Source: a virus
Virus record (IMG/VR): IMGVR_UViG_3300030329_005082
Coordinates: 26,652 to 90,651 of that record
Length of the DNA stretch: 64,000 nucleotides
Direction: 5' to 3' (one strand)
Of this stretch, positions 44,967 to 64,000 are shown piece after piece. The notes under the pieces were generated by a model. It was not told the origin of the DNA, did no database searches, and worked only from the letters and a program-made list of their open reading frames with translations. A program made the translations under genes and the position numbers. Within the stretch, counting starts at the first letter, position 1; every line of letters begins with the position of its first letter.

Positions 44967-45314
44967 TCAGCGTTGGAACCGCCTGAAAGATACATCCTTC
45001 ATGTACCTATTCAAGTAGTTGGCAAACTCTGTGAAGCCGGCCTCTGCGTACTGTTCCGCCATCCTAGAGGCGAGGACACGGAGACGGTCAGCATCGCCCT
45101 CATTGTGGTGGATGAATACCTCTACTGCATTATTTAGATCGGAGTCCCTCATTTCTGGATCTGTTCTCTCGGAGGCTCTTCCGACCCAATCTTGCCAAGA
45201 GTTCTTTTCATGCGGCCGATCAGTTGGAGGAAGTGAACGCCATGTCTCTTCCGAAAGAACCTTTGAAACTTCTTCTTTGATAATCTTTCTTAGGTGTGAT
45301 TTTGTGATCTTCAT
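44967..45314 (-). CDS. Leader-bearing protein, probable internal virion protein
   Basis: 115 residues starting M-K-I-T-K-S-H-L-R-K-I-I-K-E-E-V, with IKE at 12-14. The mature part is charged and helical, with a His-Asn-Glu-Gly-Asp segment mid-way (FIHHNEGDADRLRVL) and no known catalytic pattern. Adjacent to the prohead protease. Confidence 0.75.
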   Translation of the reverse strand: MKITKSHLRKIIKEEVSKVLSEETWRSLPPTDRPHEKNSWQDWVGRASERTDPEMRDSDLNNAVEVFIHHNEGDADRLRVLASRMAEQYAEAGFTEFANYLNRYMKDVSFRRFQR

Positions 45315-45355
45315 AATATTCTCCTTAGAGTGCGGGCGCTACCCGCACGATACTG

Positions 45356-53574: not shown

Positions 53575-53877
53575 TCAATACGGTGATTTCAAGTGTCCAG
53601 ACTTAAGTCCTAATTTTCTCGCTGCGCCGACGGTCAGTATAGCGTTCTCGCGGTCAAGTTGGTCCTGTGCTTCTTTCCGGGCTTCCGGCGAGAGCTTTTC
53701 ATTGTTGGCAATATCTTGATAAAGGCTTCTGGCTTCGTCTTGTTTCTTCTGAGATAAGCTACCGGGACCTGTTTTGGCAGCAGACATGCCGGGAGGCAGA
53801 ACTTCATCCAGAGCCGATAGAGCCTTGGAAACCTCTTCCTTGATGATTTTTCGGAGTTGGGATTTTGTGAGTTTCAT
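53575..53877 (-). CDS. Leader-bearing protein, probable internal virion protein
   Basis: 100 residues starting M-K-L-T-K-S-Q-L-R-K-I-I-K-E-E-V, IKE at 12-14. The mature part is a short helical, Lys/Glu/Gln-rich protein ending in a basic segment (RKLGLKSGHLKSPY). No known domain. Confidence 0.75.
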   Translation of the reverse strand: MKLTKSQLRKIIKEEVSKALSALDEVLPPGMSAAKTGPGSLSQKKQDEARSLYQDIANNEKLSPEARKEAQDQLDRENAILTVGAARKLGLKSGHLKSPY

Positions 53878-54353
53878 TATAGATCCCCCGCCTCGTCCTT
53901 CTTCTTCTTCTGGGGAGAATCCAAACCTTTTTCGCCAAGCGCGGCGATTTTAGACTCTATGTCGCCAGCAAAATCAGCGTCCACGTCTTCAAGTGTTCCG
54001 GCTTTTTTTCTTTCATTGTATACCTGAGCCATAATTTTAAGGGTGTTATATAATCTGTTGCCGTGGGCGTCGCCCATCAACTCTTTACAAATTATCAGAA
54101 GGTCACTTGCTTGTGCGCCTTCTTCTAGGAATTCAAAAACAAACTCCAAGAACATGACGGCACCTTGTCTCCACTCCATTTTTCCCTCAAGACGAGAGTT
54201 GATCATTCTTCTGATAGCATTAATGTCTGCTAATGGGTTTTTGATTTGATTACCCTGTTGTCCCTCATCATCAGGAACTTCAGCTTCTTGTAGTTTTTTC
54301 TTGTTGAAAACTTCTTCAATGATTTCTCTAGCGCGGGCTCGGGTGATAGACAT
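53877..54353 (-). CDS. Leader-bearing protein, variant leader
   Basis: 158 residues. Starts M-S-I-T-R-A-R-A-R-E-I-I-E-E-V, a variant of the shared leader with IEE at 12-14. The body is helical (FLEFVFEFLEEGAQASDLLIICKEL) with an acidic/Lys-rich tail. ATG 4-base-type junction with the next leader gene. Candidate late promoter 30 bases upstream. Confidence 0.7.
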   Translation of the reverse strand: MSITRARAREIIEEVFNKKKLQEAEVPDDEGQQGNQIKNPLADINAIRRMINSRLEGKMEWRQGAVMFLEFVFEFLEEGAQASDLLIICKELMGDAHGNRLYNTLKIMAQVYNERKKAGTLEDVDADFAGDIESKIAALGEKGLDSPQKKKKDEAGDL

Positions 54354-54395: not shown

Positions 54396-54575
54396 TTATT
54401 TTCTTTTAGCCCGTTTATGTATCTGAACGAGTCCTGCCATTACTCTTATATCTTTTCCGTGATAAATAATGGTTGCTACTTTTTCCCAAGTGTGGTATTC
54501 TTTTAGTAGCCCAATTTTCCACCCTTCGGCATCTCCACCCGAGTATTTAAACCTAACAAGATCACCGGCTTTCAT
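54396..54575 (-). CDS. 59-residue SH3-like protein (MKAGDLV)
   Basis: Read from the minus strand in a stretch that otherwise looks empty. M-K-A-G-D-L-V-R-F-K-Y-S-G-G, then WKIGLLKEY and VATIIYHGKDIRV strands and a basic tail (HKRAKRK). ATGA overlap with the preceding SH3-like gene. Same family as the 1130-4163 array; function unknown. Confidence 0.7.
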   Translation of the reverse strand: MKAGDLVRFKYSGGDAEGWKIGLLKEYHTWEKVATIIYHGKDIRVMAGLVQIHKRAKRK

Positions 54576-54799
54576 TTTTTATTTTGTGTGCCCGCAGAAA
54601 CGACAACAATGTCTTCCTCGTGAATATCAATAATGGCACCATGCGGATAGTCTTCTATCATTCTGCTGATAGGCGTAGTCTCGCCGACCCACCAAACATT
54701 CCAGTATCCCGCTATATCACAGGGACCTATCACAAGCCCATATCCCCCCGAGCCACTGGGGTGGAATATGTTGCTTTGTACAAGGTCGCCGGCTTTCAT
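54572..54799 (-). CDS. SH3-like protein, close paralogue of 55497-55706
   Basis: 75 residues from ATG 54799 (ATGA overlap). M-K-A-G-D-L-V-Q-S-N-I-F-H-P, GSGGYGLVIGPCD, GYWNVWWVGETTP, and EDYPHGAIIDIHEEDIVVVS. About 85% identical to the protein at 55497-55706, differing mainly at the C-terminal extension. Recent duplicate; function unknown. Confidence 0.75.
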   Translation of the reverse strand: MKAGDLVQSNIFHPSGSGGYGLVIGPCDIAGYWNVWWVGETTPISRMIEDYPHGAIIDIHEEDIVVVSAGTQNKK

Positions 54800-55020
54800 A
54801 TCTCGCATTTACATTCTTTTATTTTGTTCCGACGATTTCTGACCCTGCACAAAGGGCAGCGAATATAATGTGAATCATTTTCATAAAACATATCCCAAAG
54901 CCTGGGAACCCTCAACACTATTCTCCACGGACCAATAAACCACAAGATACAACACCGAGGTATATTAGAATGTCGTCCACACTCCCAGTGGTATTTTATT
55001 TTATTGAGATACGAAAGCAT
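54796..55020 (-). CDS. Cys-rich hypothetical protein with start inside a repeat
   Basis: Up to 74 residues from ATG 55020 (MLSYLNK), which lies in the degenerate repeat copy; no good ribosome site, so the true start is uncertain. Contains RCC, CPLC and CKC clusters suggesting zinc binding and a hydrophobic Trp-rich middle (ILWFIGPWRIVL). ATGA-coupled to the SH3-like gene. Confidence 0.45.
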   Translation of the reverse strand: MLSYLNKIKYHWECGRHSNIPRCCILWFIGPWRIVLRVPRLWDMFYENDSHYIRCPLCRVRNRRNKIKECKCEI

Positions 55021-55048
55021 ACCCATCTTGACGCTCAATGTCAATAGT
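55001..55048 (-). repeat. Diverged copy of the SbcCD gene 3' end (copy A)
   Basis: Read on the minus strand it still encodes IDIERQDGYAFVSQ plus stop, versus IDIERQDGYAYVNQ plus stop at the end of the SbcCD gene. Changes include two synonymous codons and Y to F, N to S. Ends in the same stop codon. Lies far downstream of the true gene, ahead of an unrelated gene. Confidence 0.85.
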
Positions 55049-55050
55049 TC

Positions 55051-55062
55051 TATTGTATCAGG
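55051..55062 (-). promoter_or_regulatory. Extended -10 promoter candidate CCTGATACAATA
   Basis: Minus strand CCTGATACAATA, immediately upstream of repeat copy A. The same 12 bases occur at 59943-59954 upstream of the SbcCD gene, so copy A has not only the gene's end but also its promoter-like sequence beside it. Confidence 0.45.
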
Positions 55063-55099
55063 TTTTAGACGGTTTGTATTTTTTTATTAGCCGCCAAAT

Positions 55100-55432
55100 T
55101 TACCGACGAAGCCGCCCACCGGGTAACGGTTTGCGGGGCACAGCTGTGGCTATCTTCTGTGCAAGTTCATCCCAATCTTCACCAGTAACCTCTAGCAAAT
55201 CACCCAGATCAAGAAGAGTATTTTGTGCATATTCTGGGGTCAGGTGTGCTGGCAGATACCGCATTACGTCAGTATCATTTTTAGCAGCATAGAGAAGGTC
55301 CCAGACGACGCTAGCGCCCATATCTTCAATTCTTTCTATGTATTCTTTGGGTTCAAGTCTTTCTTCTTCGACTAATACTTTCGAAATCTCTTCTTTAATA
55401 ATCTTTCTTAGTTGAGATTTTGTAATTTTCAT
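55100..55432 (-). CDS. Leader-bearing protein, probable internal virion protein
   Basis: 110 residues starting M-K-I-T-K-S-Q-L-R-K-I-I-K-E-E-I, IKE at 12-14. The rest is acidic and helical (EYIERIEDMGASVVWDLLYAA), ending in a short Arg/Gly tail. ATG after GGAGGC, with a candidate late promoter 20 bases upstream. Confidence 0.75.
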   Translation of the reverse strand: MKITKSQLRKIIKEEISKVLVEEERLEPKEYIERIEDMGASVVWDLLYAAKNDTDVMRYLPAHLTPEYAQNTLLDLGDLLEVTGEDWDELAQKIATAVPRKPLPGGRLRR

Positions 55433-55452
55433 CTATAAGCCTCCGCAGGTAT

Positions 55453-55461
55453 TATAAATAG
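55453..55461 (-). promoter_or_regulatory. Candidate late promoter motif CTATTTATA
   Basis: Minus strand ACCTATTTATAATACC, ending 20 bases before the ATG at 55432. Confidence 0.5.
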
Positions 55462-55496
55462 GTTGAAAAATCCCATTTTGCGGGAACATAACAATA

Positions 55497-55706
55497 TTAC
55501 TGCGAGACAACGACTATGTCATCTTCGTGAATATCAATAATTGCTCCGTGAGGATAGTCTTCTATCATTCTACTGGCGGGTGTTGTTTCGCCAACCCACC
55601 AAATATTCCAATATCCGGAAGCATCGCAAGGTCCCATCACAAGTCCGTAACCGCCAGATCCATCAGGGTCAAACAAGTTACTTTGTACTAAGTCTCCGGG
55701 TTTCAC
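55497..55706 (-). CDS. SH3-like protein, close paralogue of 54572-54799, GTG start
   Basis: 69 residues from GTG 55706, sharing the G of the upstream TAG stop (TAGTG). M-K-P-G-D-L-V-Q-S-N-L-F-D-P, GYGLVMGPCD, GYWNIWWVGETTP, IIDIHEDDIVVVSQ. Function unknown. Confidence 0.75.
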   Translation of the reverse strand: MKPGDLVQSNLFDPDGSGGYGLVMGPCDASGYWNIWWVGETTPASRMIEDYPHGAIIDIHEDDIVVVSQ

Positions 55707-56131
55707 TATTCTTTTTTAAAACCTTCAAAGTAGTAAACTGATTCGCACATATAAAGATGGGCGTAGTTTATGGCTTGAAGGCGCAGGGTTCCAAACACCA
55801 TACTTTCATCGTTTGCGTGGCTTGTAACAATCCAATCCATTTGCATTTCCCAAAAAGCAGCATCATTACAATCAAAGGTCGTGCGGGTAGAGCAAGTGTT
55901 AGGTTCCCAGTTTCTTGTATTGAGAGAACATCCAGCATCATCATCAGGGGGCATTGGTGCCCCATCAATCAATTCAGTCTCTATGACTTCCCATACTCTG
56001 CCGCAGTCACCGCTGGTTTCTTCCAGTCGCAGTTCATACATTCCGTTTTGGGTGGATTGCGGGATGTTACACGGCTCCTCCGTACAACCTGCTAATAATA
56101 TAATACAAGCAGCAAATTTATTGATTGACAT
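55706..56131 (-). CDS. Putative lipoprotein, start inside a repeat
   Basis: 141 residues from ATG 56131. N terminus MSINKFAACIILLAGC is a lipoprotein signal with lipobox LAGC, so it should be lipidated and anchored in the cell envelope. The mature part has several Cys, is acidic and unrecognised. The first codons come from repeat copy B, so the repeat supplies both the start codon and the first signal-peptide residues. A superinfection-exclusion or host-surface role is possible; not shown. Confidence 0.65.
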   Translation of the reverse strand: MSINKFAACIILLAGCTEEPCNIPQSTQNGMYELRLEETSGDCGRVWEVIETELIDGAPMPPDDDAGCSLNTRNWEPNTCSTRTTFDCNDAAFWEMQMDWIVTSHANDESMVFGTLRLQAINYAHLYMCESVYYFEGFKKE

Positions 56132-56166
56132 AAGCATAACCATCTTGACGCTCAATGTCAATAGTC
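56118..56166 (-). repeat. Exact 49-bp copy of the SbcCD gene 3' end (copy B)
   Basis: Identical to 56763-56811 over 49 bases and ending precisely with the SbcCD stop codon. Here it is not attached to the SbcCD gene but lies between the methyltransferase region and the lipoprotein gene. Confidence 0.95.
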
Positions 56167-56172
56167 TTTTTA

Positions 56173-56208
56173 TTATTTGTTGCCTTCAAAATAATCACCG
56201 ACTTTCAC
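56173..56208 (-). pseudogene. Truncated start of a KVGD-family gene
   Basis: GTG at 56208 after a purine-rich site opens MKVGDYFEGNK and then stops, 11 codons in all. It overlaps the end of the methyltransferase gene exactly as array genes overlap each other and runs into repeat copy B. Looks like a family member cut off by recombination. Confidence 0.5.
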
Positions 56209-56776
56209 TTATCTCTGGGTCGTAAAAAGTTTGGCTCATTGGACCTTTGTAATCCTTCTTCCAGTAAATCGCACCTATACCATTTCCCATAGGAAATCCT
56301 AATTTACTACCAGTTCCATACCACCTTATTTCTTTTATCCCACCATATTTTTGGGCGGATGTTATAAGTCCATAAGCCATAAATGCTTTCCAAACAGGGA
56401 TAAGATACACTACATTATCAGCCACCTCAAACGAGTGAAGGAAGAATTTTCGTGCGAGAGAGTATGGTGGATTAGAAATAATCCAGTCCACTGGTTTGTC
56501 CCAATCAAAGAAGTCTCGTCCCTCCGTAATTTCACACCATTCTGCTGTTGGCATTAGATTAGTAAAAACTCCATCGCCTCGGCAAGGCTCTAATATATTA
56601 CCTGTCGGGGCAAAGTGGCGTACCATATCTTCCGCAACCCAATCAGGCGTCATAATGATATCGTTGCCCTTTGGCTTGTTCTTATCCTTTTGCCTCTTTT
56701 TTGAAAGTTGTTGTCGGTACTCACGCTCTCGCTCGTCCTCATTTTGCGGGGACGAAATATTATTATTGATTGACAT
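56195..56776 (-). CDS. DNA adenine/cytosine amino-methyltransferase
   Basis: 193 residues from ATG 56776. Motif I-like LEPCRGDGVF (~60) binds AdoMet and SNPPYSLARKFF (~99-110) is the catalytic NPPY of amino-methyltransferases. The N-terminal ~40 residues are Lys/Glu/Arg-rich linker. Probably modifies phage DNA against host restriction. The start lies inside repeat copy C and lacks a normal ribosome site; a later ATG (MTPDWVAEDM) is possible. Confidence 0.8.
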   Translation of the reverse strand: MSINNNISSPQNEDEREREYRQQLSKKRQKDKNKPKGNDIIMTPDWVAEDMVRHFAPTGNILEPCRGDGVFTNLMPTAEWCEITEGRDFFDWDKPVDWIISNPPYSLARKFFLHSFEVADNVVYLIPVWKAFMAYGLITSAQKYGGIKEIRWYGTGSKLGFPMGNGIGAIYWKKDYKGPMSQTFYDPEISESR

Positions 56777-56811
56777 AAGCATAACCATCTTGACGCTCAA
56801 TGTCAATAGTC
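56763..56811 (-). repeat. Native 3' end of the SbcCD gene, source of the 49-bp repeat (copy C)
   Basis: Encodes the last 15 SbcCD residues plus stop. Repeated exactly at 56118-56166 and in diverged form at 55001-55048. Confidence 0.95.
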
Positions 56812-59800
56812 ATATCGGCAATATCTTTGAGACTATCCAAGTGAGTAATCAAAAGCACAGTCTTGTAGTAGCCCTTAATCATTTCCATCACTCGCATAAA
56901 GCCTTCAAGGTTTTCGGCATCCAACGCTGTGCCTGGCTCATCCATAATCATAATGTCTGATTTTGGTAGGGTTGACACATTGGTTAGGGCAATGCGGATG
57001 GCGATGGCTGCAAGCGTTTTCTCTGCGCCGGAAGCCATCTCTAAAGGTCGTGCTTCGTATTTTGGATGCTTGATGAAGATGTCTAACTTATTCTTTTCTG
57101 CCTCGAAAAAGATGTCGAAGTCGGTGACGTTAGCAAGAACCGTGCTGATCTCCTCGTTGATAAGAGGGAGCATCCGCTTCACAACATCATAGCTGATTCC
57201 ATTGGGATGAGTACAGCGCATAAACAAATCATAGGCAGCGTAGTCAGTCCGCAGGTCTTCCAGTTCTTGTTGTTTGCCTTTGATGTTTTCAATCTGGGTT
57301 TCAATGCCACCGTGTTGCTTTACAAGGTCAAGGACTTTGCTTTCGCAAATAGCGATGTCGCTTTCAACTTTGATGGATTGTTCTTTGAGGTCATCTTGTT
57401 CTCTGATGAGTTCCTCTCGGTTTTCAATCGCTTCTTTGTTAAGTTCGTAAATTTCAATCTTTTCTTTTATGCCCGCCATTTCGTTGGTAAGCAAATGGAT
57501 TTTGTTTTTGGTTTTCGCCAAAAGCAGATCAAGGTTGGTCGCCTCGGTACAGAGGTCAGCGTATTCCTTATCCCTTTCCTTGTAGAGTTTCCGCTCTGTT
57601 TCCAGCGTCTCTACATCCATTGCTTCCAATTTGCCGGTAAGCTGAGAGTGGCGGCGATTCAAAACCATCAAAGTCTTGCGGCACTCCTCTAAGAGGGTTT
57701 GCGACTCATAAGCATCTTTGATAAATTTACAATGAGAGAACTCAGGGCCACAAGGCACTTCGCCAAGAATCCGAACCTTCTTATCGTAATTCTCTCTGTT
57801 GGAGTTTTGAAGATTTATCTCAGCTTCTAAGCTTGTAGTCTCTTTTTGTAAATTGTCACACTCGGCGATCTTCTCTTTAAGTGCTGAGACGTTTGTGTTG
57901 TCTAAAAGCCCCTTTAGGACTTGGGCTTGCGCCAAAACATCTTTCTTTTGATTTTTGGTCTGGGCAATTTTGAGATTGAGGTCTGATCGCTCTTGTCCTG
58001 CTGCCGCAAGTCTTGCCGTCTCTTTTCTAATATTAATAAGCTCAACAGGGGCAGATGCGAAAAGTCCATCAATCTCTCTTGTTCTTTCAGAAATAGTTTC
58101 TAGCTGAGTGGCTAGCCTACTGCATTTCTTTTCTTGTCTTGTCCGGGCCTTTTCATTATCGGTCAATTGTTTTGTGAGTTGCGTAATTTCTTCATCAAAA
58201 TTATTATCTTCCAATTTTCTAAGCAACGCACGGGTTTCTATGCTGTCATTTTTAGCTAGCTTGAACTTCTTTTCAAACTGGTCTAAGTCCAAGAACTTAG
58301 CAAGAATTTCCTTACGCTTGGTTGAACCCTCGTTGATGAAGGTCATCGCACCCATCTGGCTGGACATACTTGTTAGCAAAAAGTCGTCAATGGTTCCAAA
58401 GATTCGCCGGATTGCTTTATCAGTCCCATTACGATCAAGAGAGTTTAAGCTTGTTTCCTCGTCGGTAGCTGGGTCGTAAACTGTGAACTCTACATCTGTC
58501 TTGGCTTCTTCGGTTTCTTCCCCATGAAGTTTGCGAGTGTATTTCTCGGACTTCCGCTCAATGATGTAGGTTTTGCCGGCAATTTCAATCTCTGCACGCC
58601 CGCAGCCAGAAGGCTTGTTCTGGTTGATGATATTTAGGTTCTTGCGGTTGTTCTTGCTAATGGAGTTATATACTGTGTAAAGCATACTGTCAACAACAGA
58701 ACTCTTGCCTGAATAGTTTTTTCCAAATACTCCGACAACTCCGTTCAGTTTGTCAAAGTTAATTTCATTGCCTTCGCCGTAGTTGAAGAGATTATCCCAC
58801 TCCATCTTTTTCAGCGACCACTCTACATTTCGTAACCCAGCTTCATCACCGTTGACATGGGCATCGTAGCGAGAATTGAGTTGGAATACTTTTTCTAGTG
58901 TCTTTGTCTCTGGTTCATATTCTTTTAAGTATTCCCGAATTAATCGCTCTTGAACTGCTTGATCCCGCAGGTTCTCTGTGTTGCCAAGGTCGTCAACATT
59001 CACGCTGTCCCGTTTGAGTCCAGCCTTATTGACAAATGATAGACTCTCAGGCTTGAAGCGAGACTTGACAATATCCATCACACGGCGGATCTTATCCAAA
59101 GAAACTTTATGGCGAGTAACTACACGCAGCCGGGCACCCTCTGGGATATCCAGTTTACGTGGGATGTTGCCCTTCTCTGTCATCTCAATCGTCATAAACG
59201 GTTTGACATTTTTGACGAGGTGGTGCCTAACTTCATAATGAGTCTTGCTTTTGATATCCCAAATCAAAAAGCCCTTGTCGTTTGTCTCGCCGTGGTTTTG
59301 CTGGATAGTGGAGCCACAGTAGCGGATAGTTCCACTCTCATTGAGAACCTGATTGGTTTTGTGGATGTCGCCCAACATAGCGTAGTCAAATTTATCAAAC
59401 ACAGAAATGTCGTGGTCACCGTGATCCATGACCCAACCAAGGTCTGTTTGGCTATTATTAATTGCTCCGTGATAAAGAGCGATATTAATTGCAGTAGGAT
59501 CGGTCGGGTCTTCCCAATTGGTCTCGTCAAAGATTGACAAAACGTTAAGCGTTAGATTATCTTCCAACTGAACCTCGCCTGAATACTTGTGTAGGATTAG
59601 GCTTGGGTGGTTGAGTGCTTCCACAATCGGAGTGATGGCATCTTGGCGGCTGCTGTTCCGCAGGTTGCCATCGTGATTGCCGAGGATGATGTGAGTCTCG
59701 GCGATGTCAGCCAAGTTCTTCAGGAAGTCTGTGGCTAGTTCAAAGTACTCTGGTGAGAGTTGTGTTTTTGTATGAGCCAAATCACCCGTGTGGACGATAT

Positions 59801-59915
59801 AGTCTACGTTCTGCTCTCGCAGGGTCTTGTAAATTTCCTCAAATGCTTTACGATACTCGTAATGGTATTTCAGATTTTTGATGTGGGTATCCCCGAAATG
59901 TGCAATCCGCACCAT
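56763..59915 (-). CDS. Fused SbcD-SbcC (T4 gp47-gp46) recombination nuclease
   Basis: 1050 residues in one chain. Nuclease half: GDTH (8-11), TGDL (43-46), GNHDG (79-83), LYHG (147-150), LGDIHKTN (181-188), the Mre11 phosphoesterase set. ATPase half: Walker A FGKNYSGKS (397-405), long coiled coils, an apex CGPEFSHC instead of the usual CxxC zinc hook, signature MASGAEKTLAA and Walker B IMIMDEPGTALD. T4 encodes these as two genes. Processes DNA ends for recombination-dependent replication. ATG follows GAAGGAG; an extended -10 lies upstream. Confidence 0.95.
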   Translation of the reverse strand: MVRIAHFGDTHIKNLKYHYEYRKAFEEIYKTLREQNVDYIVHTGDLAHTKTQLSPEYFELATDFLKNLADIAETHIILGNHDGNLRNSSRQDAITPIVEALNHPSLILHKYSGEVQLEDNLTLNVLSIFDETNWEDPTDPTAINIALYHGAINNSQTDLGWVMDHGDHDISVFDKFDYAMLGDIHKTNQVLNESGTIRYCGSTIQQNHGETNDKGFLIWDIKSKTHYEVRHHLVKNVKPFMTIEMTEKGNIPRKLDIPEGARLRVVTRHKVSLDKIRRVMDIVKSRFKPESLSFVNKAGLKRDSVNVDDLGNTENLRDQAVQERLIREYLKEYEPETKTLEKVFQLNSRYDAHVNGDEAGLRNVEWSLKKMEWDNLFNYGEGNEINFDKLNGVVGVFGKNYSGKSSVVDSMLYTVYNSISKNNRKNLNIINQNKPSGCGRAEIEIAGKTYIIERKSEKYTRKLHGEETEEAKTDVEFTVYDPATDEETSLNSLDRNGTDKAIRRIFGTIDDFLLTSMSSQMGAMTFINEGSTKRKEILAKFLDLDQFEKKFKLAKNDSIETRALLRKLEDNNFDEEITQLTKQLTDNEKARTRQEKKCSRLATQLETISERTREIDGLFASAPVELINIRKETARLAAAGQERSDLNLKIAQTKNQKKDVLAQAQVLKGLLDNTNVSALKEKIAECDNLQKETTSLEAEINLQNSNRENYDKKVRILGEVPCGPEFSHCKFIKDAYESQTLLEECRKTLMVLNRRHSQLTGKLEAMDVETLETERKLYKERDKEYADLCTEATNLDLLLAKTKNKIHLLTNEMAGIKEKIEIYELNKEAIENREELIREQDDLKEQSIKVESDIAICESKVLDLVKQHGGIETQIENIKGKQQELEDLRTDYAAYDLFMRCTHPNGISYDVVKRMLPLINEEISTVLANVTDFDIFFEAEKNKLDIFIKHPKYEARPLEMASGAEKTLAAIAIRIALTNVSTLPKSDIMIMDEPGTALDAENLEGFMRVMEMIKGYYKTVLLITHLDSLKDIADMTIDIERQDGYAYVNQ

Positions 59916-59942: not shown

Positions 59943-59954
59943 TATTGTATCAGG
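59943..59954 (-). promoter_or_regulatory. Extended -10 promoter candidate CCTGATACAATA for SbcCD
   Basis: Minus strand CCTGATACAATA 27 bases before the SbcCD ATG; same sequence as 55051-55062. No good -35. Confidence 0.45.
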
Positions 59955-59993
59955 TAATTTGTGGGGTGTTTAGTTTATCTGGGCTTGAGAGTT

Positions 59994-60254
59994 TTACAGA
60001 GGGTCTACTCTATTAACATAAGCTTGAAGGTCGCCAAGTAACTTATGAAGTTTTGATTTCATTTCTTCTACCGTTTCCAAAGCCTCTCCTTCAATTCCCG
60101 GCATCTCTTTGAGAATAGAAACATCACCAAGAAGTTTTGCAACACTTGATAAAACATTGTGTGCTGAATCCGCAGGGACCTGGCTCTCATGTGCTATTGT
60201 TTCGGAAATCTCTTCTTTGATGATTTGCCGTAGTTGTGATTTGGTGATTTTCAC
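59994..60254 (-). CDS. Leader-bearing protein, probable internal virion protein, GTG start
   Basis: 86 residues from GTG 60254, one base after the previous stop. Starts M-K-I-T-K-S-Q-L-R-Q-I-I-K-E-E-I, IKE at 12-14. The mature part is helical and amphipathic with no known domain. The longer frame upstream lies inside the previous gene. Confidence 0.7.
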   Translation of the reverse strand: MKITKSQLRQIIKEEISETIAHESQVPADSAHNVLSSVAKLLGDVSILKEMPGIEGEALETVEEMKSKLHKLLGDLQAYVNRVDPL

Positions 60255-60255
60255 C

Positions 60256-60723
60256 TTATGATCCCGGCTCAGATTTGGCAACAATCTTTTCTGCGGCTGC
60301 GTGACGAATTCGCCAAGGTTGATCACCCCATCGTGTTCTAAGGTGACCCAGGATAAAATCTATCTTATCTTCGTAATTGTCACTCTTGGCGAAACTAACA
60401 GCCTTTGCTGCATCGCCACGGTAGTTCTCAAGGTAATCACTGACTATTTTCTGAATATTTTCTTCGTCGTGACTCAGGCTGCCAGGCTGGTCTTTCTGTT
60501 CTGCTTTGACAGCTTCCCAGTCGCTGTCGCCGGCATACTTCGATGATGTTCTGGCAATTCTTTTTGCTTCCTTTTCGTTGGGAGCACCTGTCCATACATG
60601 TACTTTTTCTGTTTTTCCAGTTTCAGAATTTCTCATTGTGACTATCCAGGCTATCTCGTTTTCCCAGCCTTCTTGGATTGTCTCTTTGATGAGTTTCCGT
60701 AGATATGATTTAGTAATCTTCAT
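60256..60723 (-). CDS. Leader-bearing protein, probable internal virion protein
   Basis: 155 residues starting M-K-I-T-K-S-Y-L-R-K-L-I-K-E-T, IKE at 12-14. The mature region has a beta part (EIAWIVTMRNSETGKTEKVHVWTG) and a helical C-terminal half with a Trp-Arg-rich segment (RTRWGDQPWRIRHAA). No family recognised. Middle gene of three adjacent leader genes. Confidence 0.75.
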   Translation of the reverse strand: MKITKSYLRKLIKETIQEGWENEIAWIVTMRNSETGKTEKVHVWTGAPNEKEAKRIARTSSKYAGDSDWEAVKAEQKDQPGSLSHDEENIQKIVSDYLENYRGDAAKAVSFAKSDNYEDKIDFILGHLRTRWGDQPWRIRHAAAEKIVAKSEPGS

Positions 60724-60976
60724 TCTGATATCCTCTTGTTAACAAGTCCATGATACGCTCTAATTTGCGCTCCATCGCATTATAGTCATCAGAATTAGCT
60801 TGGAGATGTAACTCAACAACACCCTGCGTTAGATCCTCCACTATTTCAATTATCTCTTCATAACCTGCTTGGGTCATTACATCTTGGAACTTTTCGTCGG
60901 TCACTTCACCTGAATTCCACTCTGTTTGAAGTTCTTCCTTGATTATCTTCTGTAGTTGTGATTTTGTGATTTTCAT
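60710..60976 (-). CDS. Leader-bearing protein, probable internal virion protein
   Basis: 88 residues from ATG 60976, which overlaps the stop of the Cys-rich peptide (TGATG). Starts M-K-I-T-K-S-Q-L-Q-K-I-I-K-E-E-L, IKE at 12-14. The remainder is acidic and fully helical. Confidence 0.75.
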   Translation of the reverse strand: MKITKSQLQKIIKEELQTEWNSGEVTDEKFQDVMTQAGYEEIIEIVEDLTQGVVELHLQANSDDYNAMERKLERIMDLLTRGYQNEDY

Positions 60977-61077
60977 CAACAATCCCCCTTACAATCCGAA
61001 CAGGAACAACAACCGCAGCAGCAGCAACAGTGCTTATCATTAAAAAGGTTAACCAATTTGTGAAGTATCTTTTTCAT
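60976..61077 (-). CDS. 33-residue cysteine-rich peptide
   Basis: Starts MKKILHKLVNLFNDKH, then C-C-C-C-C-G-C-C-S-C-S-D-C-K-G-D-C and stop: ten cysteines among the last 17 residues. ATG preceded by GGGGAAAT; a CTATTTATA motif lies 22 bases upstream, and the stop overlaps the next gene's ATG, so it appears to be a genuine translated unit. An amphipathic basic N terminus plus a Cys cluster suggests a metal-binding or thiol-reactive peptide. Confidence 0.6.
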   Translation of the reverse strand: MKKILHKLVNLFNDKHCCCCCGCCSCSDCKGDC

Positions 61078-61110: not shown

Positions 61111-61914
61111 CTAGATGCCAGCAAGGCGAAACACGTCGGAAGTTATTGCCAGTGCAAAGATAGCGAAGACCAAAACCGCACCAATAATATTTAGTGCGTT
61201 TCGTGTCTTTACGGCTAGTTTTTTGCGTCTTATTCCTTCTACCACAGAAATACCTATATGTCCACCATCTAATACTGGAATTGGTAAAAGGTTTATAACA
61301 CCGAGATTGATGGAGAAAAAGGCAATCCAATCTATTAAGAATCCCCAGTCTCCTGTTTCTGCACTGCGCTTTCTTGCTTGTTCCGTAAATTCATAAACAG
61401 CAACGGGTCCGCCAACTTCTTTAATACTCATTGGTTCTTGGCGTGGTATCGTTACAGCCTCCCAAATACTTTTATACATATTGGTTGCTATATTATGAGA
61501 ATATCCAGCCGCCTCTATTACGCCAATGCGATGAGGTTGGGCTCCTTCCGGAACATAAACGTCGGGATATGGTTGTCCGACCAACATCATGAAATATAAT
61601 GGCCAAGGTAACAATAGATTGAATACCGGACCCATCACAGCTATAAAAGCTCGTTTCCATGCCGACACCCCCCAAAAAGACGTGGGATCATTTCTCTTGT
61701 TGTGATAATCATCTTCTCCACGAGGTTTGATATATCCACCTAGCGGCAGCAATGACAGTCGCCATTCAGTTCCCCACAGTTTCTTTTTGAGGAGGACTTT
61801 GCCGAACCCTATTGAAAAGCTGTCAACACCAACACCCACAACACGGGCTGCGACGAAATGTCCAAGCTCGTGGACAAAGATTACTAAAACGATTATTCCA
61901 AGAAAGGTAAGCAT
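61111..61914 (-). CDS. Site-2 (RseP/S2P-type) intramembrane metalloprotease
   Basis: 267 residues from ATG 61914 (GAGG 7 bases upstream). HELGH at 15-19 in the first membrane helix and the second zinc ligand in PVLDGGH near the C terminus are the M50 active site. Membrane segments near 1-20, 80-105, ~195-215 and ~240-260. Much shorter than E. coli RseP (450) and without an obvious PDZ domain, so a minimal S2P. Cuts substrates within the membrane; the target is unknown. Confidence 0.9.
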   Translation of the reverse strand: MLTFLGIIVLVIFVHELGHFVAARVVGVGVDSFSIGFGKVLLKKKLWGTEWRLSLLPLGGYIKPRGEDDYHNKRNDPTSFWGVSAWKRAFIAVMGPVFNLLLPWPLYFMMLVGQPYPDVYVPEGAQPHRIGVIEAAGYSHNIATNMYKSIWEAVTIPRQEPMSIKEVGGPVAVYEFTEQARKRSAETGDWGFLIDWIAFFSINLGVINLLPIPVLDGGHIGISVVEGIRRKKLAVKTRNALNIIGAVLVFAIFALAITSDVFRLAGI

Positions 61915-62363
61915 AATATGTCCTCTTCGCATACGTTCTGGGAACGGAGTTCGTACTTGGGAACACCATATCCCTTAATATCCCAAACTTCTTTTACTCC
62001 GGGTGGAAGCCTGTGCTCTATCGGAGTCCAAAATTTAATGTGATTATATATCTTTTTATTTTCTGCCTTCAATTGCTGTATCTCTATGTTCTGTTGTTTG
62101 ATGACGCTTTCCAAATTGTAAAGAGCGTGGCTCGCAGCCTGTTCAAGTCGCTCTTCAATTCGGCTCTCATTCACAATATATAAAAGGAGACCCATAAAAA
62201 TCGTACAGACCACAGTTGCGACAACCGAAGTCCAAACGACTGCCGAAAGGTAGTTGGTTTTTACTTTCTTGGCGGGCGGCGAGACATCAATAATCTCAGG
62301 CTCGTACATAGAATTACGAGCGTCTTCTTGCATTTTTCTGTAAAAATCCCTTTCCCTACTCAT
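61893..62363 (-). CDS. Single-pass membrane protein with coiled coil
   Basis: 156 residues. Basic and Pro-rich N-terminal 40 residues, membrane helix ~39-63 (AVVWTSVVATVVCTIFMGLLLYI), then a coiled coil (~67-105) and a C-terminal domain with two late Cys. Overlaps the site-2 protease gene by 22 bases, so it could be its partner or substrate. A CTATTTAC motif touches the start codon; a downstream ATG at 62333 may be the real start. Confidence 0.6.
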   Translation of the reverse strand: MSRERDFYRKMQEDARNSMYEPEIIDVSPPAKKVKTNYLSAVVWTSVVATVVCTIFMGLLLYIVNESRIEERLEQAASHALYNLESVIKQQNIEIQQLKAENKKIYNHIKFWTPIEHRLPPGVKEVWDIKGYGVPKYELRSQNVCEEDILCLPFLE

Positions 62364-62393: not shown

Positions 62394-63077
62394 TTATACA
62401 ATGATCAAACGGTTAGAGTTCATCAGTGCGTCTATTACTTCTGTACTATTCTTTTTATATACCTTTGAAAGCGAGCTATCTGCCCAATCTTTACCAAAAC
62501 TTCTGATTGTTTTGCTCTGATCGCAGTCATCTATTTCATAGTCAGGAGTTAGTTGAGGCACTGACTTGTTGAGGTCTCTTGGGTGGTTAGGGTTTGTATC
62601 TAATTGTTTTTTCTGAATATCACCCCTGTCTAGGTATTTGTCCCAAACAGCCATGGCATAATCTGAGACCATCACTCTGTCTGGCATCAGTCCACCACCA
62701 TTCTTTGTGGACCACTCAAGAGCAACCTCATACAGTAGAGGACCCCAACCACGCTCAACATATGCTCCAAGAATAACATACCCTCCGTGACAGGGCCCTT
62801 CATAATCATCATCGGTTTTCTCAATCGTAACATGACCATGAGGATAGCCGGTCTTTATCACCTTTCTATCTTTACGAATTGTAGAATCATCGCTGGACAA
62901 TTCAGAATACTGTTGAGTCTCGGGATCTTCTATTCGGACATATTTAAAAATTATGCGACCGGACGTAACTAGGATAGTAACCCCAACATCTTCTGGTAGT
63001 GCATCAAGTTTTTTTTGTATACGGGGATCAACACCTTCCTTCAAAAACTTGCGCCACTCTGTTAGTAATTTTTTCAT
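62394..63077 (-). CDS. Leader-bearing protein with acetyltransferase-like region, probable injected protein
   Basis: 227 residues from ATG 63077 (ATGA overlap). Leader M-K-K-L-L-T-E-W-R-K-F-L-K-E-G, LKE at 12-14. The central GGYVILGAYVERGWGPLLYEVALEW and LMPDRVMVSDYAMAVWDKYLDR resemble a GNAT-like region found in environmental phage proteins; the match is by pattern only. C-terminal ~60 residues unrecognised. Confidence 0.65.
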   Translation of the reverse strand: MKKLLTEWRKFLKEGVDPRIQKKLDALPEDVGVTILVTSGRIIFKYVRIEDPETQQYSELSSDDSTIRKDRKVIKTGYPHGHVTIEKTDDDYEGPCHGGYVILGAYVERGWGPLLYEVALEWSTKNGGGLMPDRVMVSDYAMAVWDKYLDRGDIQKKQLDTNPNHPRDLNKSVPQLTPDYEIDDCDQSKTIRSFGKDWADSSLSKVYKKNSTEVIDALMNSNRLIIV

Positions 63078-63550
63078 TCTATGTTGTCCCAAAATTTTGT
63101 GGCTCGGTCGTCATAAAACTCGCAGGTGTTAGTCCAGTTGGTATTATTGTCTATGACCTCTTTGATGTAGGCCAAACTATCAGGGTCATCAATCACATAA
63201 CTAAACACTAGGTAGTCTCTGCCTTCTTTGGGTTTTTCCGATGTGTCGGTAGTCAATCCCAGCGGAGCCACGGAACCAACTTCTTCTCGGGAGATTTCGC
63301 CACGGGTGTCGTAGTATTTTCCGTTGCGATATATAGCCACATGGTAAAGATCAAACTCTTCCGAGGGGTCGCCTGAATCTAGCTCTGGGTCTGAGTCCAC
63401 CACGAGAACAACTTCTGTGCCTTTTATCCCACGGTTGATTGCCTCTTGTAGAAGAGCAACGGCTAGTGTTCCACAGTTTCCGTATAGTTCAGGATCAAGG
63501 CTTTCCTCTTCCTTCAAAAACTTCCGCCACTCTGTTAGTAGTTTTTTCAT
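63074..63550 (-). CDS. Leader-bearing protein with possible cysteine peptidase/amidase site, probable injected protein
   Basis: 158 residues. Leader M-K-K-L-L-T-E-W-R-K-F-L-K-E-E. Then YGNCGTLAVALLQEA (C26), LYHVAIYRNGKYYDTRGE (H70, D81): a Cys-His-Asp arrangement as in papain-like or transglutaminase-like folds. If active it would cut or modify a host target after injection. Family not identified. ATGA junctions on both sides. Confidence 0.6.
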   Translation of the reverse strand: MKKLLTEWRKFLKEEESLDPELYGNCGTLAVALLQEAINRGIKGTEVVLVVDSDPELDSGDPSEEFDLYHVAIYRNGKYYDTRGEISREEVGSVAPLGLTTDTSEKPKEGRDYLVFSYVIDDPDSLAYIKEVIDNNTNWTNTCEFYDDRATKFWDNIE

Positions 63551-63563
63551 TTTTTCTTTTTTT
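63513..63563 (-). repeat. 51-bp repeat spanning a gene junction and leader, copy 1
   Basis: Identical to 63905-63955. Covers the tail of the upstream gene, the ATGA overlap and the leader codons up to FLKE. Confidence 0.9.
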
Positions 63564-63942
63564 CCACGATTTCTATAGACTGAGGAACCAGCCTGTCGTC
63601 TGGACTATCTTCATCTCCATCCCAGAAGAAGATGTTTTTGTAATCCTCGGGGTTAGGCCACTCTGGGCTTATCTCATAATCATAGACAGGTCTGATGGCT
63701 GGATCTTGAACTTGTAAAATCACAGGATCTTTCAAAGATTTGTCCCAGCCGCCTTTTTGGGCATAAGATTCAGCCGCACCAAGTGTTCCAAAGAAGTAAG
63801 CCCCCAGTCCAATATCTCCCCACTCAGGCCAAAAGCCCTCATCCATAATTGTAGCAGCAGTTTCACGGTCAGTAACGTGGTAGTAAGTTCCACCCGAACC
63901 TTCTTTCAAAAACTTCCGCCACTCTGTTAGTAGTTTTTTCAT
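63547..63942 (-). CDS. Leader-bearing ADP-ribosyltransferase-like protein (Alt-like, probable injected effector)
   Basis: 131 residues. Leader M-K-K-L-L-T-E-W-R-K-F-L-K-E-G (LKE 12-14), then a small ART-like domain: GGTYYHVTDRETAATIMDEGF (nucleotide-site His/Thr and first helix), GLGAYFFGTLGAAESYA (the G-x-Y-F-F-alpha pattern of ART/KptA-like folds) and a final VPQSIEIV strand. T4 Alt is a packaged, protease-trimmed, injected ADP-ribosyltransferase, so leader plus ART is a strong parallel. Catalytic residues are not certain. Confidence 0.6.
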   Translation of the reverse strand: MKKLLTEWRKFLKEGSGGTYYHVTDRETAATIMDEGFWPEWGDIGLGAYFFGTLGAAESYAQKGGWDKSLKDPVILQVQDPAIRPVYDYEISPEWPNPEDYKNIFFWDGDEDSPDDRLVPQSIEIVEKKKK

Positions 63943-63955
63943 TTTTTCTTTTTTT
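63905..63955 (-). repeat. 51-bp repeat spanning a gene junction and leader, copy 2
   Basis: Identical to 63513-63563. Because it includes the end of the upstream gene, both upstream genes end in EKKKK. A third, diverged copy of the leader part is at about 63040-63077. Confidence 0.9.
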
Positions 63956-64000
63956 CTAACTCGGGATGAAAACCTAAATAGACCTTTCTTATGTCGTCGC
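63940..64000 (-). CDS. C-terminal end of a further gene (partial)
   Basis: 19 codons enter from the right edge (...DIRKVYLGFHPELEKKKK, stop), the stop overlapping the next ATG as ATGA. The end resembles that of the ADP-ribosyltransferase-like protein downstream, so it may be another effector of this run; only the tail is visible. Confidence 0.5.

Follow-up and report, generated by a model that had tools for sequence, protein, structure and literature searches.

The 3' end of a phage SbcCD gene is a landing site for serially inserted cargo genes

Introduction

Why should a phage carry the end of one of its own genes three times over? In a 64,000-nucleotide stretch of viral DNA (the window), part of a 178,630 bp virus record with a T4-type terminase gene, a 49-nt block occurs on the minus strand in three copies, each corresponding to the last 15 codons plus the stop codon of the SbcCD gene (100%, 100%, and 86% identity). 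Genomic islands of the integrase type enter the 3' ends of genes and restore them, and a preliminary description of the window had read the copies as the scars of such events. Here we compare the locus with its relatives, asking how the copies arose, why they are retained, and which kind of enzyme may have been at work.

Results

The SbcCD gene end is present three times

The target gene (56763..59915, minus strand) encodes a fused gp47/gp46-like SbcCD nuclease of 1050 aa that matches PHROG 77 (E 2e-41) and PHROG 100 (E 2e-36) as well as the Pfam families Metallophos, SMC_N, and AAA_23. Copy A of the block (56763-56811) is the 3' end of this gene and also the start region of a methyltransferase gene. 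Copy B (56118-56166), identical to A at 49/49 positions, is a displaced SbcCD end in the start region of a lipoprotein gene, and copy C (55001-55049), identical at 42/49 positions with homology starting at 55048, lies in the start region of a gene for a Cys-rich protein. The copies, each correctly placed by the preliminary description ahead of a different cargo gene, are real; zero matches are expected by chance in shuffled sequence. We found no further copy in the 178.6-kb record and no exact match to the block in bacterial or archaeal genomes.

In the SbcCD frame, copies A and B translate as TIDIERQDGYAYVNQ and copy C as TIDIERQDGYAFVSQ, each followed by the stop, confirming that coding sense is kept in the diverged copy. 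Copy C had been taken for a diverged form of A, but rather than a drifted A it is the SbcCD end found in other phages (L017 and L027, TTCGTATCTCAATAAAATAAAATACC).

The block also supplies the start of the next gene

The gene that follows each block is open from ATG codons inside it, in a frame other than that of SbcCD (MVMLMSIN.. and MGMLSYLNK..; the other-frame reading of ..ATGGTTATGCTTATGTCAATCAAT.. is MVMLMSIN). Because the start of the lipoprotein signal peptide is encoded in copy B, including the n-region MSINK with its positively charged start MSINKFAACIILLAGC, the block is needed there as a gene start. Among the related genomes, slot-1 genes, those directly after SbcCD, open from block start codons in 20/26 cases (p=6.7e-6). 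The block is thus gene end and gene start at once.

Displaced copies survive because the block supplies the start codon of the next gene in another frame. Indeed, they are free to lose SbcCD coding: in L041 the TAG stop has become CAG, in L031-2 the stop is lost, and L018-2 has a 12-nt deletion, and the other frame stays open in all of these despite the damage to the SbcCD frame. The earlier statement that all copies end at the stop codon is thus true of the window but not of L041 and L031-2.

There is also a promoter-like, sigma70-like TTGACA-17-TATGCT inside the block. Its hexamers are unchanged in 13/15 displaced copies and the spacer is changed in 5; this hexamer conservation is weak evidence that the block may be a promoter too. 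The view of the block as a mere scar had overlooked both the start codon and the promoter-like hexamers; it is as the start of a gene that a displaced copy is retained. A purely duplicated promoter is likewise rejected as a full account, since the N terminus of the following protein is encoded in the copies as well, as with the lipoprotein signal peptide.

The promoter-like hexamers, their conservation, and the start codons used by slot-1 genes all speak for module shuffling without a dedicated nuclease, in the manner of PeSL elements: whatever gene lies downstream would need the regulatory/start region in the SbcCD end, and ordinary recombination through SbcCD and illegitimate joins, giving rise to many arrangements, would be followed by selection that keeps both SbcCD and the old gene intact and so duplicates the overlap. 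We return to this account below.

Organization of the island

All features of the island lie on the minus strand. Just past the SbcCD stop is a hairpin (CGTCC..GGACG, 56733..56755, fold z -2.5) that forms the left end common to several cassettes. Its counterpart in L041 and L045 is GTTCC..GGAAC (fold z -2.4 and -4.5, respectively), and the sequence after the stop is common to L012, L037, L041, and L045. A conserved hairpin after the block in several genomes is a further point in favor of module shuffling.

The slot-1 cargo is a gene for a small DNA methyltransferase (56195..56788; PHROG 799, E 4e-29) with its N terminus encoded by copy A and a likely start at 56788, 56782, or 56776. Upstream of copy B is the remnant GAAGGCAACAAATAATAAAAA (56167..56187), which matches the 3' tail of a ParB-like cargo gene ('ILKAT') and which we call the 'class 1' junction. 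The second cargo, recognized from its sequence, is the lipoprotein gene (55706..56149, likely start 56131). Beyond it lie a small MKPGDLV-type island gene (55497..55706), which is a paralogue of 54572-54808 (202-nt repeat, 77%); a terminator-like hairpin, TCCCGCAAAATGGGA, with a T run (55471..55485, fold z only -0.9); and an island gene with the N terminus MKITKSQLRKIIKEE (55100..55432). Directly upstream of copy C is the extended -10-like AAACCTGATACAATA (55051..55065), the 'class 2' junction, also present in L037 and L069; it resembles sequence upstream of SbcCD at 59943-59957. The third cargo is the Cys-rich protein gene (54796..55026, start 55026 or 55020).

Cargo differs among related phages

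We gathered about 40 contigs of the same clade via SbcCD relatives and exact block searches; all are metagenomic contigs, some ending near the locus, and a non-redundant set was picked by eye, one per near-identical group (L020, for example, is a duplicate of L018). The gene touching the SbcCD stop varies among about 25 related contigs. It is the lipoprotein gene in L015, L019, L023, L038, and L064; the Cys-rich gene in L008, L017, L025, L027, L030, and L031; a ParB-like gene in L040; the methyltransferase gene in three genomes (the window, L006, and L013); an HNH/EndoVII nuclease gene in L007, L012, L018, L026, and L039; and other genes in L010, L014, L021, L024, L035, L036, and L041.

Displaced copies of the SbcCD end number 17 on 14 contigs, the window (B and C) included. 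They occur on seven further contigs that hold the SbcCD end (L012, L013, L018, L031 with two, L037, L041, and L045) and on six that begin after SbcCD (L058, L062, L069 with two, L072, L080, and L084). The comparison proposed in the preliminary description turns up relatives of each kind, without a displaced copy, with one, and with two, and their cargo differs.

Given that the contigs are all metagenomic and the repeat is short, the copies might be thought an artefact of assembly. The 49-nt repeat is, however, shorter than the usual read length, the same junction types recur in independent contigs, and the displaced genes stay open; of all the explanations weighed here we give this one the least credence.

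Occupied and empty loci record the order of insertion

The history of the locus can be read from pairs of phages with and without an insertion. L012 has the order SbcCD-HNH-copy-ParB-like and L040 the order SbcCD-ParB-like; the two are 94.8% identical from the first base of the copy, with no match upstream of it, and their SbcCD ends are 96.5% identical, so that the difference between them is the HNH/EndoVII-type gene in L012. Similarly, the match of window copy C to L017 (92%) begins at nt 2 of the block, with no similarity ahead of it, the L045 copy matches L031 at 95.6% from ~2 nt upstream of the copy, and L041 matches L021 at 74% over 1.5 kb beyond the block. In L018 (HNH gene) and L013 (methyltransferase) it is the lipoprotein gene that is displaced, with empty counterparts in L019 and in L015/L019, respectively. 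The same site thus exists with nuclease-carrying and empty alleles (L012 vs L040; L018 vs L019).

Because displaced genes have empty counterparts, the point of entry for new cargo is between the older gene and SbcCD, and it is on the SbcCD side that stacks grow. These comparisons show that the repeats are an insertion record and that the SbcCD 3' end is a landing site for cargo. SbcCD remains intact after each insertion, and the older gene is left with a copy of the SbcCD end that it retains because this copy holds its start codon and perhaps its promoter. The window has gone through at least two rounds: SbcCD-Cys-rich came first, then the lipoprotein unit, then the methyltransferase, with the newest nearest SbcCD. 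Repeated insertion at the SbcCD 3' end with the gene rebuilt each time, as originally suggested, is borne out by these pairs and by the varied cargo.

A local tandem duplication in one genome, followed by divergence, would account for the 202-nt paralogous gene pair found in two units, and tandem amplification driven by SegB is known in T-even phages (PMC13096335). Yet the units carry unrelated cargo genes, copy C is closer to other phages than to copy A, and every displaced gene has an empty counterpart. We reject this explanation as extremely improbable.

Junctions share a left edge and cassettes share both ends

In 15 displaced copies, the alignment to SbcCD reaches only 0-5 nt beyond GACT (GACTATTGAC) in the upstream direction, placing their left edges within ~6 nt of a single point. 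There are at least six junction types with this common left edge. One, the 3' tail of the ParB-like gene, is found at window copy B and eight others, the 'class 1' tail preceding displaced copies in L012, L013, L041, L058, L062, L072, L080, and L084; another, CCTGATACAATA, is found at window copy C, L037, and L069-2; the others are the end of the Cys-rich gene (L031-2) and the junctions of L031-3, L018-2, and L045. A scan with GAAGGCAACAAATAA returned 69 matches, most of them by chance, and only those with the block adjoining were used. In L012 (whose nuclease ends ..ILKATNNKKTIDIERQDGYAYVNQ and stop), L013 (methyltransferase), L058, and L084, the inserted gene reads in frame into the copied SbcCD tail and takes its stop.

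Three cassettes, those of the window methyltransferase, the L012 nuclease, and L041, have both ends in common (the hairpin and the ParB-like tail) and different cargo between them, an arrangement which suggests that cassettes are swapped between common ends and which again fits module shuffling. The common left edge of at least six junction types, on the other hand, is left unexplained by module shuffling alone; a promoter/start region kept to a minimum by selection in a compact genome could be an alternative source of so sharp an edge.

Divergence is lost on the SbcCD side only

Between divergent members of the clade, the fraction of synonymously different codons is 0.45-0.53 in the body of SbcCD and then falls toward its end, through 0.345, 0.215, and 0.104 to 0.069, in comparisons of pairs that are not independent. 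It is back up to 0.37 in the final five codons, which move together with the cargo, and the core genes past the island have values of 0.42-0.59. Less divergent pairs show the same dip, from 0.27-0.33 to 0.08. Exchange is intense and one-sided, through the SbcCD side only, and this one-sided synonymous dip matches the flanking co-conversion expected of a homing element. Selection on an overlapping function may explain the last ~50 nt, but hardly a gradient of ~450 nt.

Seventy SbcCD loci of sister lineages (~50% identical SbcCD) have no such dip, with values of 0.37-0.50 up to codon -5, and no gene-end copies. Because the sister lineages show neither, dip and copies belong together. As a rule, the following gene in these 70 loci is located past the stop and has its own leader, which also counts in favor of module shuffling.

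Slot 1 is enriched in endonucleases, and recombinases were not found

HNH/EndoVII endonucleases account for 5/23 slot-1 genes vs 0/98 other island proteins (Fisher p=1.7e-4; the counts are small), an enrichment that module shuffling alone leaves unexplained, although HNH genes may occupy slot 1 for some other reason. The nucleases in slot 1 fall into several families (PHROG 1035, 2633, 8048, 6050, and 1271). Those of L007 (PF01844) and L026 (PF02945) are above Pfam cut-offs and those of L018 and L039 slightly below, and those of L012 and L016 are identified by PHROG EndoVII matches (E 5e-12 and 5e-17). L016 is an outgroup without the block sequence, and it too has an HNH/EndoVII nuclease near the SbcCD end. 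Most slot-1 cargo is non-nuclease. The window's own record has no PF01844 HNH or GIY-YIG match, and no Endonuclease_7 match in a search run without a positive control; in the genomes with a slot-1 nuclease, we saw no consistent change of the SbcCD end that would account for immunity to their own enzyme. Across this group of uncultured T4-like phages, the inserted genes often encode DNA-cutting or DNA-methylating enzymes.

The earlier remark that no recombinase is visible in the window extends to the whole 178.6-kb record, where we found no tyrosine or serine recombinase (PF00589, PF00239) with positive controls; nor was PF00589 found in 8 relatives (two of 172-190 kb; the related records are partly fragments). 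These searches bear on the reading first offered, that of site-specific integration by an integrase supplied in trans, with the SbcCD end providing an att-like core. Its appeal lies in the target, a gene 3' end, in the copies that flank cargo like att sites, and in a short inverted repeat, TTGAC-N7-GTCAA, within the block. However, this repeat is not only short but also part of a coding sequence, the cargo units have no recombinase, the cores are not identical (the last five codons vary with the cargo, 0.37), and the displaced copy of L018 is without most of the core. An integrase is therefore very improbable, and the cargo points instead to homing-type HNH/EndoVII enzymes. An integron (IntI + attC) was also rejected: PF00589 was not found, and the common 'class 1' end is the tail of another cargo gene.

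Discussion

The best reading of the locus is serial, one-sided recombination at the SbcCD 3' end, probably initiated by homing endonucleases, to which we give a slightly better than even chance. While the insertion history is observed, the nuclease step is one that we infer. A double-strand break would occur in the recipient near GATAT|GACTATTGAC, made by a free-standing homing endonuclease of the HNH/EndoVII type that a donor phage carries in its slot 1. On the SbcCD side, the broken end would be repaired by homology from the donor, so that a complete SbcCD end and the donor slot-1 gene are copied in, and the other end, without homology to the donor cargo, would be joined illegitimately, which is why the displaced copy would start at or near the break. 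This one step would yield an intact SbcCD end, new cargo, and an old gene still with its start. Later, the cargo between the common ends, with the hairpin at the left and the 'class 1' tail at the right, might be exchanged by ordinary recombination, with passenger genes such as methyltransferases and the lipoprotein gene replacing the nuclease. That homing drives the whole stack, the endonucleases repeatedly breaking the phage's own SbcCD 3' end and one-sided repair stacking genes whose old end becomes a start signal, would make the locus a ratchet that adds genes without loss, methyltransferases and other accessory genes among its load; this fuller version is more tentative, and we put it somewhat short of an even chance.

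Precedents for such steps come from T4, where one-sided homology supports illegitimate double-strand-break repair during intron homing and where free-standing endonucleases sit in intergenic sites with promoters in the 3' end of the upstream gene (PMC2988022); EndoVII-type homing endonucleases have also been described (PMC6083498). Like the free-standing homing endonucleases of T4-like phages (seg/mob, F-CphI), the genes seen here are of the HNH/EndoVII type and lie between phage genes beside a conserved replication/repair gene (PMC2988022, PMC6083498). As with T4 homing endonucleases, divergence is lost locally in a manner resembling gene conversion, and illegitimate joining on the non-homologous side is documented in T4. 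Unlike in those systems, the end of the target gene is duplicated at each insertion and the units stack; most of the cargo here is non-nuclease, the displaced ends become gene starts, and cleavage is presumed. SegB drives segmental amplification in T6/T4 (PMC13096335), and there too a homing endonuclease shapes tandem structures, but SegB amplifies the same segment whereas here different cargo genes are added successively.

The locus resembles integrase-type islands at gene 3' ends in that the gene end is rebuilt, the old end is displaced, the newest insert stands first in the stack, and the insert lies between direct repeats of the gene 3' end. It differs from them in that an integrase was not found, the core is not identical, and the displaced copy serves as a gene start.

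Module shuffling is the main rival of nuclease-initiated insertion; as the sole explanation it is possible but rather doubtful, and both processes may act. PeSL elements, reportedly set out by Arbiol in 2010 and Comeau in 2014, are said to be mobile regulatory cassettes of T4-type phages. As far as they are presented in papers citing that work (PMC4503421, PMC4177764), they are short repeated elements, promoter-like and with hairpins, at cargo boundaries, where they permit module exchange as the block may do. By the same accounts they differ from the block, which consists of 3'-terminal coding sequence from a single core gene and also provides a start codon. PeSLs as so presented are scattered over the genome, whereas the block is confined to one locus (three copies in the record; in six relatives searched, at this locus or absent).

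Our results bear on an old question, how phages gain non-homologous accessory genes while their essential genes remain unbroken. At this locus, alleles are found both with and without inserts, the junctions can be placed exactly, divergence dips on one side only, and candidate nucleases are at hand; together these can be read as a time series of such gains. The locus suggests that if a cargo gene has its start within the end of a core gene, further insertions can persist only when they duplicate the overlap, and that the gene end thereby becomes a reusable start module.

Passenger genes of the island

In related metagenomic phage contigs, the island of cargo genes beyond the 3' end of SbcCD (the fused gp47/gp46-like nuclease gene) includes genes for c-type cytochromes encoded by the phages themselves, whose N termini resemble those of lipoproteins. 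Matches to Cytochrome_CBB3/Cytochrom_C were obtained for five of the island's proteins, and the loci, assigned by sequence reading, are L012:4844-5203, L030:9342-9713, L031:2739-3086, L037:1324-1680, and L040:629-967. Another frequent passenger belongs to the 2-thiouracil desulfurase family (PF04463), represented by L006:5186-5653 and 12 other island proteins. One contig, L045, carries between SbcCD and the Cys-rich gene a unit of about 87 nt (L045:99-186) flanked by copies of the 49-nt SbcCD 3'-end block. No gene is apparent in this unit, which contains a strong hairpin and is perhaps a collapsed cassette.

Other genes of the window

The window also encodes a Tubulin/FtsZ-like (TubZ-like) phage protein (51859-52995) and a protein with a strong match to M50 site-2 proteases (61111-61932; E 1.5e-56), the latter unusual in a phage. 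A small gene of the MKPGDLV/MKAGDLV type is present in two copies that are 77% identical (54597-54798 and 55504-55705), and runs of such genes occur in many relatives, including L055 and L069.

Repeated gene starts and a promoter-like sequence

At least five window genes open with the near-identical peptide MKITKSQLRKIIKEE (45254-45316, 53817-53879, 55372-55434, 60194-60256, and 60916-60978). These starts are also alike in DNA, at 68-76% to the reference copy, and further examples lie elsewhere in the record and in relatives; MKITKSQLRKIIKEE appears to be an N-terminal tag common to several genes. Similarly, a 57-nt block with the gene start MKKLLTEWRKFLKE occurs three times (63035-63091, 63508-63564, and 63900-63956), with two copies 98% identical, and would be another gene-start module, repeated recently. 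Finally, CCTGATACAATA is found at 59943-59957, upstream of SbcCD, and at 55051-55065, upstream of the displaced block copy that starts the Cys-rich gene; it may represent the true promoter type of this phage.
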